From a virus, in the IMG/VR virus record IMGVR_UViG_3300021438_000065, positions 1 to 25,249 of that record: a DNA stretch of 25,249 bases. The stretch is one strand, 5' to 3'. The position numbers and the translations under genes were made by a program. The notes under the pieces were generated by a model. It worked only from the letters and a program-made list of their open reading frames with translations, made no database searches and was not told where the DNA came from. Shown in pieces: positions 11,473 through 24,359 of this stretch (position 1 is the stretch's first letter; every line of letters begins with the position of its first letter).

Positions 11473-11778
11473 TTAACGTGCAATTTCTAGCTTACAAAGA
11501 ACATCATCATCATTTAGAATGAGATATTTATTTTCATCTGTGTCAGTAACTTCTTTACCTGAATAACGAATAAAACAAACTTTATCTCCAACATTTAATA
11601 TAGTAGAATCACGACCATGAGCTTCATAAGCTGTTGGTCCTACTTGTAAGACTGTACCATATTCCACAGCCTTCCGTTCTTTCTCTATAATTTGTTCTGG
11701 TATTACAATACCACCTGGAGAAACTGTTTCTTTTTTATCTGGATCAATAAGGATATGATGTAAAAGTAAAGTAATCAT
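11473..11778 (-). CDS. GroES-like (Cpn10) co-chaperonin
   Basis: A 101-residue protein with the full Cpn10 layout. The N-terminal strand 'LLLHHILIDPDKKET' corresponds to GroES 'PLHDRVIVKRKEVET'. The mobile-loop motif GGIVIP (GroES GGIVLT) is at about residues 22-27. It also has 'YGTVLQVGP' (GroES 'RGEVLAVGN'), 'LNVGDKVCFIRYSGKEV' (GroES 'VKVGDIVIFNDGYGVK') and a C-terminal 'YLILNDDDVLCKLE'. Heptamers of such proteins cap the host GroEL. Some phages encode their own to fold capsid protein, such as T4 gp31, which is not closely related in sequence. Placement inside the head operon between portal and scaffold supports a dedicated role in capsid folding. Confidence 0.85.
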   Translation of the reverse strand: MITLLLHHILIDPDKKETVSPGGIVIPEQIIEKERKAVEYGTVLQVGPTAYEAHGRDSTILNVGDKVCFIRYSGKEVTDTDENKYLILNDDDVLCKLEIAR

Positions 11779-16280: not shown

Positions 16281-16630
16281 TATTTTAGATACTTTAATTT
16301 GTAGATTGTACGGAGATAATGAGAAAGAAGTTCATCAAGAATATTCTTTAGGGGAGTTACAGAATGACAAAGAGCTTCATAGTTCTTGTCAATCCAAACT
16401 ACATCATCTTGTAATTGTTCTATAGGATCTTTACATTCACAATCAAATTCTACATCAGTAATTTTTTTATAATTACCCTGATAAACTTCAACAAAATTAT
16501 CTAATATATCTATAATCTCTTCATAGAAGTCACCAAGAGCAGTATGTTCAGCATATGAATCTGATTGCCAATGGGCAATATGTGCACAGTTTCTAGTACA
16601 AAAAACTCTAGTAATTAATTCTTCAATCAT
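16280..16630 (-). CDS. DUF5856 / Dps-like helical phage protein
   Basis: I start at the ATG at 16628-16630 (116 residues), which overlaps the terminase small-subunit stop as ATGA and has GGGGA upstream. The segment 'TRNCAHIAHWQSDSYAEHTALGDFYEEIIDILDNFVEVYQG' matches the pattern I associate with phage DUF5856 and resembles the first two helices of Dps/ferritin-like bundles ('..HW....(F/Y)..H..L..FYE...D..D...E...G'), including His and Glu positions that could bind metal. Helical structure continues to the end. Whether it binds iron or DNA is unknown. Location in the packaging operon suggests a role during DNA packaging or in protecting phage DNA. Confidence 0.6.
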   Translation of the reverse strand: MIEELITRVFCTRNCAHIAHWQSDSYAEHTALGDFYEEIIDILDNFVEVYQGNYKKITDVEFDCECKDPIEQLQDDVVWIDKNYEALCHSVTPLKNILDELLSHYLRTIYKLKYLK

Positions 16631-17220
16631 TCTTTTATTCCCCAAGAACCATCTTCAAGTTGAACCACATTCTCACCTTCAATACAATCTTTAACAAGAT
16701 CTTTAACATGTTCTTCATTTAATTTACCAGTAACAAACTTAGTAAATTGATCAGCAAGATTTTGTAATTGTGCTGCTGTGGATTGTTGTTCAACTATCTT
16801 TGTAGGTTGTTTTCTAATTAGTTGTCGTTTGTCTAATAACTGTGTAAAGGTAGTATTAATGTCTCTAAGTTTAGCTGGTATTCTTTTTACCTTACCAGTC
16901 CTAACATCAAACATATACTCACCATTTTCGATTCTATCCATGACTGCATCAAGAGCTTTATCTATTCCTTTACCAAGTCTAGTATCAAGTCTATCATAAT
17001 CATCTTTTTGTATCTCTTGTACTTTCTCTTTCCACCAAGGAGAATTTCTCCATTTGTTTAATGTATGAGTTGGTACATTTACTTGTTCTGATGTTAATGT
17101 GATAGATCCTGTAGCAAGGAATACTCCTATAGCTTCATTCTTTTTTTTATCTGACCAAAGCCCAGGTACTCCCGGTACATTCTTTCTTGGGGCTTTAACG
17201 TATCTCCACGACCCAGGCAT
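16627..17220 (-). CDS. terS: Terminase small subunit (DNA recognition)
   Basis: A 197-residue protein, first gene of the late operon and upstream of terL. Residues about 25-70 form a helix-turn-helix (NEAIGVFLATGSITLTSEQVNVPTHTLNKWRNSPWWKE), as in small terminases that bind pac or cos. The rest is helical (ALDAVMDRIENGEY...TTFTQLLDKRQLIRKQ) and ends in an acidic tail, as in ring-forming small subunits that hand DNA to TerL. AGGAG lies just ahead of the ATG, which is about 30 bases from the likely transcription start of the leftward promoter. Other HTH proteins are possible but position makes this the best call. Confidence 0.78.
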   Translation of the reverse strand: MPGSWRYVKAPRKNVPGVPGLWSDKKKNEAIGVFLATGSITLTSEQVNVPTHTLNKWRNSPWWKEKVQEIQKDDYDRLDTRLGKGIDKALDAVMDRIENGEYMFDVRTGKVKRIPAKLRDINTTFTQLLDKRQLIRKQPTKIVEQQSTAAQLQNLADQFTKFVTGKLNEEHVKDLVKDCIEGENVVQLEDGSWGIKE

Positions 17221-17256
17221 AACTCTCCTTAATTTAAAGTTACAGTATATAATGCT

Positions 17257-17285
17257 ATTATAACATATTTTTTTACCTTTGTCAA
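17257..17285 (-). promoter_or_regulatory. Leftward late-operon promoter, perfect sigma70 consensus
   Basis: On the minus strand TTGACA (17280-17285) is followed by exactly 17 nt and TATAAT (17257-17262), with TGT before the -10 giving an extended -10 (TGn). Both hexamers match 6/6. Transcription would start near 17250, about 30 nt before the small-terminase ATG. A full-consensus promoter for late genes is unusual, because late genes are normally delayed, so a repressor or other control is expected. Confidence 0.9.
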
Positions 17286-17343
17286 GTGTTTTTTACAAAA
17301 ATATAAAAATAAATTAAAAATAATTAAATAATTAAAAAAAGAC
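17286..17343. other. A/T tract between divergent promoters (UP-element or unwinding candidate)
   Basis: These 58 bp separate the two -35 hexamers and are almost pure A and T, with runs such as AAAAATAATTAAATAATTAA. They would serve both promoters as an UP element. An easily melted origin element is an alternative that sequence alone cannot decide. Confidence 0.6.
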
Positions 17344-17372
17344 TTGACTTTTGGATTTATTTATGGTATAAT
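17344..17372 (+). promoter_or_regulatory. Rightward early promoter, near-perfect sigma70 consensus
   Basis: TTGACT (17344-17349), 17 nt, then TATAAT (17367-17372) preceded by TGG (extended -10). The match is 11 of 12 hexamer bases. Start of transcription is expected near 17379. It mirrors the leftward promoter, and both share the flanking GACTTGAC/CACTTGAC context. Confidence 0.9.
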
Positions 17373-17565
17373 ACTATTATCTACAGTGAAATATTATTCA
17401 CTAAAGTTTCAACGGGCTACTCATAACTTCTTATCAGAAGGAAAGAGTGTGCGGCACATACCATACTGATGAGTACAAGGTATGCAACAATTTTCTTTTC
17501 TGTTTTTTTCTTTTTTCCTGCATACCGACAGGTATCTTGTGACAGGTAATTCCCAACACTATTGT

Positions 17566-17580
17566 GGGGGGTAAGGGGGG
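17566..17580 (+). repeat. Double G6 tract (pairs with C tract at 17773)
   Basis: G6-TAA-G6. It stands out in AT-rich DNA. It could pair with the C8-A-C5 tract 190 nt downstream, or form an intermolecular G-quadruplex. Confidence 0.7.
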
Positions 17581-17666
17581 TTTGCTCTTTTTTTAGGTTT
17601 TCTTTACTTTGATAAATAATATATATAACTAAGGTAATGTGGATTCCGTAAGGAAGACACAAATAG

Positions 17667-17679
17667 TATATACGTAGTA
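17667..17679 (+). repeat. Long-range inverted repeat, left arm
   Basis: TATATACGTAGTA is the exact reverse complement of TACTACGTATATA at 18075-18087, about 400 nt away in the same leader. A 13-nt match is not expected by chance in a region of 1 kb. Confidence 0.7.
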
Positions 17680-17772
17680 GTGAATATCCAATATATCCAA
17701 TAGAGCATTATTAAAAAATAGTATAAATTATAGCAGTGTGTGATCTGTAAATAATCATAGTGGGTAGGTTTT

Positions 17773-17786
17773 CCCCCCCCACCCCC
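17773..17786 (+). repeat. C8-A-C5 tract
   Basis: It follows GTGGGTAGGTTTT, with which it can also form a local hairpin (GTGGG with CCCAC). It is complementary to the G tracts at 17566-17580, so the two pairings exclude each other. Confidence 0.7.
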
Positions 17787-17816
17787 TCTAAAATATTCAT
17801 ATACCCTCCCTCTATC

Positions 17817-17837
17817 AAATGAGAACCATTCTCATTT
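17817..17837. promoter_or_regulatory. Fur-box-like 21-bp palindrome (operator candidate)
   Basis: AAATGAGAA-CCA-TTCTCATTT is a perfect 9-bp inverted repeat around 3 bp. Its core TGAGAAC-C-ATTCTCA matches 11-12 of 14 positions of the 7-1-7 Fur consensus TGATAAT-n-ATTATCA. A weak -10 (CATAAT, 17839-17844) lies just downstream and a weak leftward TTGATA overlaps its left edge. It could be a host Fur site or an operator for a phage repressor. Without a T-tract it is not a good terminator. Confidence 0.5.
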
Positions 17838-18074
17838 CCATAATAATAAAAGTGTTCTTTTCACCAATTTATCTTTTCAATTAGTTGGCTTCAGAATTAC
17901 ACTACCTTCTTTAGCTTTACTCTTGGCATGATTCTTGCATGTACTCTTTATTACAAAAGCCCTCTTCTTACATTCAGTATTATAATAGTACCAGTGCATG
18001 TCTGGCAAAACGCTGATTGTCACCTCCAGTCCTGTCAATATCAACAACTTTCTATCACTCCCTGTTATACACTG

Positions 18075-18087
18075 TACTACGTATATA
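18075..18087 (+). repeat. Long-range inverted repeat, right arm
   Basis: TACTACGTATATA, exact reverse complement of 17667-17679. It is embedded in CTG...CAG, so it also has a short local palindrome. Confidence 0.7.
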
Positions 18088-18156
18088 CAGCCGCCCGCTT
18101 GACCTGTCTTCGGAGAAGAAAGTTATTGACATTGCCACTCCTTACAGTGCCAATTC

Positions 18157-18190
18157 AGCAGCCAGACAAGCTCTGGTGCTATTTTTTTTT
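18157..18190 (+). terminator. Intrinsic terminator just before first early gene (attenuator candidate)
   Basis: AGCA-G-CCAGA (18157-18166) pairs with TCTGG-TGCT (18172-18180) over 9 bp with one bulged G and loop CAAGC, followed by A and nine T. It lies only 15 bp before the ATG at 18206 with that gene's AGGAGA between. Since no good promoter lies between it and the gene, the terminator must be bypassed or suppressed for early gene expression. Confidence 0.85.
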
Positions 18191-18205
18191 ATTTAGGAGA
18201 TAGAG

Positions 18206-18568
18206 ATGATTAAGTATGCTCGCTATGGAGGATATGAATGCTCCTCCAAAGGTGATCGGCGATTTAGTGCCTTTTATGCTATCCTTCCTGATGGTAAGAG
18301 CATTGAATGGCATTACCAGTGCTCCGTTAAAGGGTATTCCTCGATTAAAGAGGGGAAAGGTAAACCTCCTCTTAAACCTTGTGATACTCAGCAAGCCTAC
18401 ATCGACTTATGGGCACTATGGGCCAAAAACAACCCTGAATTGATGTATGAGTTATTTGTATTGGTAGGACCTAATGGTACGCTTAGTGATATGTTCGCTA
18501 AGACCCCGATCAACCAAGCAAGAACCCTCGCTTACTTACTGAATAACCCTAAATTATGGAGAACATAA
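18206..18568 (+). CDS. Conserved phage early protein of unknown function
   Basis: A 120-residue protein, first gene of the rightward set, with AGGAGA 9 bases upstream of the ATG. The pattern 'KGDRRFSAFYAILPDGKSIEWHYQCSVKGY...GKGKPP', then 'YIDLWALWAKNNPELM' and 'LSDMFAKTPINQARTLAYLLN' is one I recognise from early regions of many unrelated phages ('G.RRFSAF.A.....SIE..YQ...KG...GKG......Y..LW..W...NP.L......LTDMFA....NQARALA.IL'). No function is established. First-expressed position behind an attenuator would fit a host-takeover or anti-defence protein, which is inference. Confidence 0.75.
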   Translation: MIKYARYGGYECSSKGDRRFSAFYAILPDGKSIEWHYQCSVKGYSSIKEGKGKPPLKPCDTQQAYIDLWALWAKNNPELMYELFVLVGPNGTLSDMFAKTPINQARTLAYLLNNPKLWRT

Positions 18569-23199: not shown

Positions 23200-23514
23200 A
23201 TGACACCACAAGAAATAATTGACGTTATTACAGCATATAATGATGGAAAACAAATTGAATATAGAGGCATTTTAGAGAACACATGGTATCCTGCTGATAA
23301 ACCAAAATGGAATTTTATTTCTTTTACTTTCAGAATTGCACCAAAACAAACAAAAGTACTTTATCAATTTTTAGTAAAAGAAGGATCATATTTCCATGCT
23401 AGCTCTACTTTCTTCTCTACTTTAGAAGAAGCAAAAAACTACTACAACAAACAATATCAAACTATAGTACCTATCCAACGTCTTGACTATACCAAATGTA
23501 CCATCGAGGAATAA
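23200..23514 (+). CDS. Small phage protein, paralogue of the gene upstream
   Basis: I start at ATG 23200 (104 residues), with GAGGA 8 bases upstream and one base past the previous stop, rather than at the TTG inside that gene. Residues 1-50 ('TPQEIIDVITAYNDGKQIEY...WYPADKPKWNFISFTFRI') repeat the 'DGKQI.(Y)...W...(D/K)P.W(N/D)F..F.(Y/F)RI' motif of its neighbour. The remaining residues form a second segment (LYQFLVKEGSYFHASSTFFS, TLEEAKNYYNKQYQTIVPI) that looks like a small alpha/beta domain. Function unknown. Confidence 0.62.
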   Translation: MTPQEIIDVITAYNDGKQIEYRGILENTWYPADKPKWNFISFTFRIAPKQTKVLYQFLVKEGSYFHASSTFFSTLEEAKNYYNKQYQTIVPIQRLDYTKCTIEE

Positions 23515-23516
23515 TA

Positions 23517-24359
23517 ATGTTCTATATCCTACGTCGTCATGGTCTTGGTAATGGTTCTACCAAAGCAATTCAACAATATTCACAACATCCAATTACAATT
23601 CTTCGATCTGACAATTTACCTGTTTTAAATAACAAAGATACTGTATTACGTTGGGGATGTACAACAAGCATACCATGCCATGTTGATGACACACCAAAAG
23701 TTCTCAACAATACAAAAAGCATCCACTATAGTAATAATAAAAAAGAATTTCGTCTAATCTTACAAATAAAACATCCAGAAATTACACCTAAAACTTGGCT
23801 TGTTTCCGAAGACGAGAAAATTACTTTCCCTTGCATTATTAGACCACAAAATCATGCACAAGGAAAACATCTTTATCTTTGTAGTTCTTATACAGAACTT
23901 CTTAACACTTGTAACAAATTCACATTTTTAGATACTGGATATATCTCAAAATATATCCCCAAAGTAGCAGAATATCGTGTTTGTTTTATACAAGGTCTTG
24001 TTGCTTGGGTAGCACAAAAAACACCAAAAGACCCACAAGATATCGCTTGGAATGTAGCTCAAGGTAGTAGATTTAATAATCTACGCTGGAAACAATGGCC
24101 AATCTCTGTTATTGAAGCTGCTTACAAAGCATACATCCTTAGTGGATTATATCTAGGTGGTGTTGATGTAATGGTAGATAAAGATGGTCGGTCATTTGTA
24201 TTAGAAATTAATTCCGCACCATCACATACAAGTCCATATCGCCAACAATGCACTACAAAATGTATTGATTATGGAATTACCAATAATAATTTTAAACATT
24301 TACAACCAAATGAAGAATTCAAAAAATACGGCAAATGGCTCCATCCAGCCCTTAAATAA
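23517..24359 (+). CDS. ATP-grasp fold ligase
   Basis: A 280-residue protein (ATG 23517, GAGGA 6 bases upstream). Its layout is that of phage-encoded ATP-grasp enzymes: an N-terminal 'VLRWGCTTSIP...NTKSIHYSNNKKEFRLIL', 'FPCIIRPQNHAQGKHLYLCSS' (the central ATP-lid strand and glycine-rich loop), 'YISKYIPKVAEYRVCFIQGLVAWVAQKTPKDP..IAWNVAQGSRFNN', and 'YLGGVDVMVDKDGRSFVLEINSAPSHTSPYRQQ' (metal-binding Asp, Glu and Asn of the final strand: VLEINSAP). Such enzymes join a carboxylate to an amine through an acyl phosphate, as in RimK or peptide ligases. The substrate is unknown. A glutamine-amidotransferase-like gene is downstream. Confidence 0.82.
   Translation: MFYILRRHGLGNGSTKAIQQYSQHPITILRSDNLPVLNNKDTVLRWGCTTSIPCHVDDTPKVLNNTKSIHYSNNKKEFRLILQIKHPEITPKTWLVSEDEKITFPCIIRPQNHAQGKHLYLCSSYTELLNTCNKFTFLDTGYISKYIPKVAEYRVCFIQGLVAWVAQKTPKDPQDIAWNVAQGSRFNNLRWKQWPISVIEAAYKAYILSGLYLGGVDVMVDKDGRSFVLEINSAPSHTSPYRQQCTTKCIDYGITNNNFKHLQPNEEFKKYGKWLHPALK
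24186..24195 (+). repeat. GGTCGGTCAT motif copy
   Basis: Exact 10-nt copy in the ATP-grasp gene, read as Gly-Arg-Ser, a different frame from the copy at 21070. Confidence 0.6.

Follow-up and report, generated by a model that had tools for sequence, protein, structure and literature searches.

The window, meaning the whole stretch of DNA that was analysed, is a 25,249-base record of an uncultured virus. Leftward late genes, encoding a small-terminase-like protein, an HNH/endonuclease VII-like protein, the large terminase (terL), the portal, a GroES-like protein, the major capsid protein and a P22-type stabilisation protein, lie to the left of positions 17257-18205, and rightward early genes together with two tRNAs lie to the right. 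The closest named records, as judged by terL, were an uncultured phage from Manatee Spring (MW202796) and Alcaligenes phage vB_Af_QDWS535, both with at most 50% identity. When known-phage DNA was searched for similarity to the region between the two gene sets no match was obtained, and short core queries returned A/T chance matches only. The GroES-like (Cpn10) protein of the late operon (11473-11778) is retained in relatives. An ATP-grasp (RimK/glutamate-ligase-like) protein is encoded at 23496-24359, and amidoligase, COOH-NH2 ligase and ATP-grasp genes are present in the Alcaligenes phage relative.

We interpret 17257-18205 as a central intergenic control region in which several parts are layered on the same DNA, and we hold the four-part explanation given below, taken as a whole, to be somewhat more probable than its negation. 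The features assigned in and beside this region were:

16627-17220, minus strand: small-terminase-like gene (197 aa) at the start of the leftward late operon, assigned from a predicted fold, a weak profile match and gene position
17285-17257, minus strand: predicted leftward sigma70 promoter, TTGACA-17-TGTTATAAT (12/12), conserved in relatives
17344-17372, plus strand: predicted rightward sigma70 promoter, TTGACT-17-TGGTATAAT (11/12), conserved in relatives
17379-18190, plus strand: predicted noncoding leader RNA of about 810 nt, from promoter and terminator positions and the lack of a conserved frame
17457-17484, plus strand: leader hairpin CATACC/GGTATG (helix 1), covarying with locus L014, 2/6 pairs doubly compensated
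17522-17535, plus strand: leader hairpin ATACC-GACA-GGTAT (helix 2), covarying with L014, 4/5 pairs doubly compensated
17566-17580, plus strand: G-run GGGGGGTAAGGGGGG, common to L014 and complementary to the C-run at 17773-17786
17710-17740, no strand assigned: motif A, the A-tract ATTAAAAAATAGTATAAATTATAGCAGTGTG, from the alignment of 29 relatives
17769-17787, no strand assigned: motif B, TTTTCCCCCCCCACCCCCT (terminase strand: GGGGGTGGGGGGGGAAAA), core of the proposed packaging site
17818-17836, no strand assigned: Fur-box-like palindrome AATGAGAACCATTCTCATT, 17/18, 31 nt past the C-run
17979-18008, minus strand: promoter-like site TTGCCA-18-TATAAT in the 5' arm of the rod, seen in the window and not conserved in relatives
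17984-18183, plus strand: rod-like hairpin of about 200 nt (RNA z -6.5, DNA z -7.5), window only
18161-18190, plus strand: intrinsic-terminator-like hairpin with T9, the 3' foot of the rod
18206-18568, plus strand: first rightward (early) gene, PHROG 9995, a family without assigned function

The model of the 16627-17220 product consisted of a helix-turn-helix, a long helix and a beta hairpin (pLDDT 73, pTM 0.43). Solved small terminases were among its top fold matches, with Z scores of only 5.5-6.8, and Foldseek alone gave no match at E <= 0.001. In sequence comparisons PHROG 2538 was matched at E 0.0076, other members of the protein group matched further small-terminase families, and a Protein Data Bank sequence search with the small-terminase alignment returned no informative match. 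The gene lies just upstream of terL in relatives, and the modelled protein has the helix-turn-helix and putative oligomerisation helices of a small terminase encoded next to its large partner. Support for the assignment is thus weak from sequence and moderate from the predicted fold. No relatives of the gene were found in 84,980 bacterial or archaeal genomes, so that bacterial genomes gave no prophage or host clue.

The first-pass annotation had described two near-perfect extended -10 sigma70 promoters pointing away from each other, and both were present as described, conserved and unique in the window. They were the only sites in the whole 25 kb that scored at least 11/12 and carried the TGn of an extended -10, and dinucleotide shuffles of the window contained 0.11 such sites on average. 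The divergent pair was located at the same place in about two dozen relatives, nearly all of which keep both promoters, and the rightward one often reads TGATACCCT in these phages. Judged by this conservation, strong host-type promoters would drive transcription in both directions, one serving the late operon that terS leads on the left and the other the early genes on the right. It was considered whether a G-rich primer RNA might arise, as a conserved feature, from the leftward promoter-like site at 18008-17979; this was rejected, since the site is not conserved in relatives.

The same annotation held that the rightward transcript has no convincing gene before the early region, and this was borne out, as conserved protein-coding signal was looked for in related loci and not found. 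When all leader frames were compared by tblastn with every fetched locus no relative was detected, and the two frames of 91 aa (17928-18203) and 81 aa (17417-17662, minus strand) had no credible Pfam match. The folding of the leader exceeded that of shuffled sequences (z -4.5), and no Rfam family was matched by the leaders of the window and its relatives at either gathering or relaxed thresholds. L014, the nearest relative having a leader of the window type, was diverged enough for a pairing test. All 11 pairs of the two hairpins were kept between the window and L014, 6 of them via double changes, compared with a mean of 3.0 double changes for shuffled partners (10/500 shuffles reached the observed 6), and slid versions failed. 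A search for more leaders of this type returned L014 itself and a chance match, L141. Among more distant relatives a different hairpin, GCGA-stem-GA(A)GC with freely covarying stems, was present in 11 of 28 leaders (0.015 expected from shuffles) and was essentially confined to the rightward strand; it is missing from the window and L014 leaders. The opposed GA steps on the rightward strand alone suggest that sheared G-A pairs form in the rightward RNA. The tract GGGGGGTAAGGGGGGTTTG in the leader (window 17566-17580 and L014) resembles G-quadruplex-forming transcript tracts, and in locus L103 the DNA to the right of motif B carries repeated copies of a GTGTCG...CGACAC inverted repeat and folds very strongly (z -6.3).

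The rod at 17984-18183 has an RNA minimum free energy of -65.8 kcal/mol and is strongly folded on both strands. A terminator 15 bp upstream of the first early gene had been proposed, and the hairpin (18161-18177) and T9 (18182-18190) are present there, 15 nt ahead of the ATG at 18206, as a GC-rich hairpin running directly into a U-run in the manner of a predicted intrinsic terminator. A simple scan found 2 terminators where 1.7 were expected, which is not beyond chance, but the hairpin arms belong to the 200-nt rod, which leads directly into nine Us. That the rod is the leader of the first gene's family was rejected, as homologues of this gene occur in large phages without a rod. The rod, the hairpins covarying with L014, the element at 17710-17787 and the palindrome at 17818-17836 are additions to the first-pass annotation.

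The strongest conservation across phages was found in an element at 17710-17787, which recurs in about 30 related phages and is probably conserved as DNA and not as RNA. In the alignment of 29 relatives the A-tract, with a consensus near AAAAAnTATAAAAATTTAGCAnGGTGCATTACGTCA, is separated by about 20 variable bases from TTTTCCCCCC[CT]ACCCCC, and the spacing is nearly constant. We scanned 2.9 million viral contigs with two versions of the C-run alone, as a bare DNA pattern, and obtained 85 loci. A small and/or large terminase match was present in 73 of these, in 73/73 cases on the strand reading GGGGGGTGGGGGGAAAA, a count that overstates independence since many of the 73 loci are close relatives. 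Wherever terL was matched it lay 0.55-4.5 kb downstream on the GGGGGGTGGGGGGAAAA strand. About half of the loci belonged to unrelated phages whose small subunit is of the Terminase_2 family (PF03592). In these the motif lies 19-120 nt after the terS stop and is followed by the same block order, a C-rich box with ATTTTT next, about 30-50 nt past the G-run. The group to which the window belongs has the order motif-terS-terL, and the unrelated phages have terS-motif-terL; given this difference, what surrounds the motif in both groups is the terminase module, as opposed to the leader or the promoters. One motif copy per record was found in 50/50 contigs (2.6-53 kb), the reversed pattern was found in none of the same 50, and the near-complete contigs of 46-54 kb carried one motif per genome. 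In Alcaligenes phage vB_Af_QDWS535 the motif is at 48250-48264 of the record. Immediately next to the element, toward the terminase genes, TTTAAAC-type repeats showed 8-fold enrichment. A looser GGGGGAGGGGGT version was located before terS in Cronobacter phage Ss1 and Vibrio phage VA-RY-3, and the full motif is missing from the known phages with related TerL (BcepC6B, EXVC031P and MEP301).

A unique site of fixed orientation linked to the terminase genes has the character of a pac or cos site, and 17710-17787 is a probable packaging-initiation site of this kind. The data on physical ends were the ends of assembled contigs in 58 records. On the non-terminase side 8 of the 58 ended within 120 nt of the motif (0.66 expected, P 5e-7) and 18 within 550 nt (3.0 expected), spread over 14-530 nt, and on the terminase side only 2 ends were found, none beyond chance. 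The ends did not fall at one base even in close relatives (L018 and L019 differ by 5 nt), and one record, G001, begins 78 nt from the motif on the terminase side. The simplest form of a fixed cos site was rejected, since the ends of contigs are dispersed and a contig of 46 kb is broken at another place. The one-sided pile-up is what would result if the first cut were imprecise and packaging then ran in the direction of terL, and an assembly break at the hypervariable early region could mimic it. The record of Alteromonas phage ZP6, for which PhageTerm was used to determine termini according to its paper, starts 335 nt before terS with no G-run at the end and neither supports nor refutes the assignment.

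Two known arrangements can be compared with this site. In lambda, cos (cosN-cosB) lies upstream of terS and terL, with a GC-rich run, an A/T-rich tract and repeats preceding the terminase genes on the same strand. The likeness to the present locus, which has a GC-rich run, an A/T-rich tract, repeats and small and large terminase genes on one strand, is one of layout only. Unlike in lambda, the contig ends are scattered instead of sharing one base, the motif is separated from terS by 0.46-1.5 kb and two promoters, and the second phage group has the motif after terS. P22 first cuts are spread across about 120 bp around pac (PMC11226127), and in SPP1 the pac site, which contains direct repeats, is located at the small-terminase gene (PMC4737164). 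The position at or beside the small-terminase gene and the repeats are shared with these pac sites, as would be the imprecision of the putative cut, whereas the sequence is another one and the signal is a mirror-like G6TG6 run with an A-tract; headful permutation would be a predicted feature here.

On the early-gene side of the element, possible binding sites for host proteins were observed. The palindrome of the window is a 19-bp 7-1-7 inverted repeat (TGAGAAC-C-ATTCTCA) near the Fur-box consensus, and in 349 kb of loci of the window's group (group 1) there were five Fur-like palindromes of at least 16/18 (0.02 expected), one of them in the window and all five 47-138 nt beyond the motif B start. 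Fur-box-like palindromes were noted 31-119 nt past the C-run in the window, L022, L063, L110, L018 and L016/L058, with no conserved promoter overlapping. The relatives make the usual T/G and A/C choices of a bacterial Fur box, but the site stands in the control region of a virulent-type phage beside a terminase-linked element and not over an iron-uptake promoter. DnaA boxes in relatives occurred at 0.80/kb in the interval between 100 nt ahead of the motif and 900 nt beyond it and at 0.04/kb elsewhere in the same loci, a 20-fold enrichment that is carried by a subset of the relatives. Perfect boxes (TTATCCACA) were clustered in the early-side noncoding region, right of motif B, in L017, L031, L063 and L110. 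The window contains no DnaA box, and one-mismatch sites were at chance level over its length. The unrelated motif-bearing phages had neither Fur-like sites nor DnaA enrichment beside the motif (DnaA: 2 in 92 kb), which means that the terminase-linked element is separable from a possible origin.

The leading alternative is that the A-tract/C-run element and its flanks are a replication origin, with the repeats and A/T tract for unwinding, a G-run that may form a quadruplex or R-loop, DnaA and Fur sites on the early side and a transcript priming synthesis. This is a serious contender, although on balance we doubt it. The DnaA enrichment beside the motif in relatives, the repeats and A-tract, the location at the early/late divergence and the single copy per genome are all as expected of DnaA-box/iteron origins. 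Against this, neither the window nor the unrelated phages carry the DnaA boxes, in the latter the motif is embedded in the late operon with terS and terL on either side, and the orientation of the motif is tied to terL. It is highly improbable, in our estimate, that the clustering of contig ends and the conservation of the C-run reflect hard-to-assemble sequence without a packaging function. G/C runs and A/T repeats do assemble poorly and the ends are scattered, but the contigs extend across the motif before ending, 14-530 nt further on and only to one side; since contigs read through the G-run, sequencing failure there is not the cause of the pile-up. Furthermore, unrelated phages agree in the motif, its spacing and its orientation.

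Other explanations place the function in the RNA. The leader could chiefly be a regulatory RNA, either a processive antitermination element or an attenuator gating passage through the rod terminator into the early genes, which we consider unlikely as the main role. The strong promoter, the compensatory changes in the structured leader and the terminator-like foot with U9 just ahead of the first gene would suit such a function, and the distance of the GA-hairpin from the transcription start resembles the spacing of HK022 putR, which is located about 270 nt from its start site (PMC9378689). The put antitermination RNA of HK022 is about 70 nt long and binds RNA polymerase through two stem-loops, making the enzyme resist termination (PMC9378689); it shares with the present leader a position downstream of an early promoter and before terminators, the comparison being by position only, and differs from it in that the hairpins here vary between subgroups. 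The GA-hairpin is lacking in the very leaders of the window and L014, the relatives are without the rod and, by inspection of their sequences, mostly without a terminator right before the first gene, and the most conserved block is linked to terminase and occurs in phages without this leader. The regulatory-RNA idea of the first-pass annotation thus keeps its promoters, noncoding leader and structured rightward RNA but is not the whole story, the strongest conservation being that of the DNA element. We give little credence to the view that 17984-18190 belongs to this phage alone, as a small RNA of its own or an inserted hairpin (6S-like or mobile), the remainder being an ordinary untranslated leader. 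The extreme folding for its composition, the U9 end and the failure to find the rod at the same place in relatives would be explained, but Rfam gave no match on either strand (6S RNA covariance models had none up to E 10 in 17950-18210 or 17200-18300), there is no good plus-strand promoter just upstream of the rod, and it was not found before homologues of the first gene.

The explanation that we favour, with modest confidence, is a joint one of outward promoters, a structured leader, a packaging site at 17710-17787 and sites for host proteins with a possible origin overlap. The rightward transcript would start with the noncoding leader, whose folding and covariation point to hairpins under selection, and end at the rod hairpin with its U-run. 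On replicated concatemers the small terminase would bind the element and the neighbouring repeats, and the large terminase would first cut the DNA next to the G-run, on the side of the early genes, with packaging then proceeding toward terL. Given how widely the contig ends are spread, an imprecise headful cut of the P22 kind seems likelier than a fixed cos cut. The Fur site and, in relatives, the DnaA boxes suggest that host proteins are also active in this region, which may overlap an origin. A bolder proposal, which we regard as quite unlikely in its full extent, is that GGGGGGTGGGGGGAAAA with the A-tract represents an undescribed and widespread class of packaging signal, which in one group is coupled to a Fur site and overlaps both the origin and the leader RNA; Fur carrying iron would then help to shape or time early transcription, replication or packaging.

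The covarying leader hairpins constitute a candidate RNA absent from Rfam. Fur sites beside the element would be an unexpected contact between host iron regulation and a phage replication/packaging switch. If packaging starts at the element, a recognisable DNA signal would be linked to two small-terminase groups, and a short signature would mark the genome ends in many uncultured phages, making the packaging type predictable from contigs.
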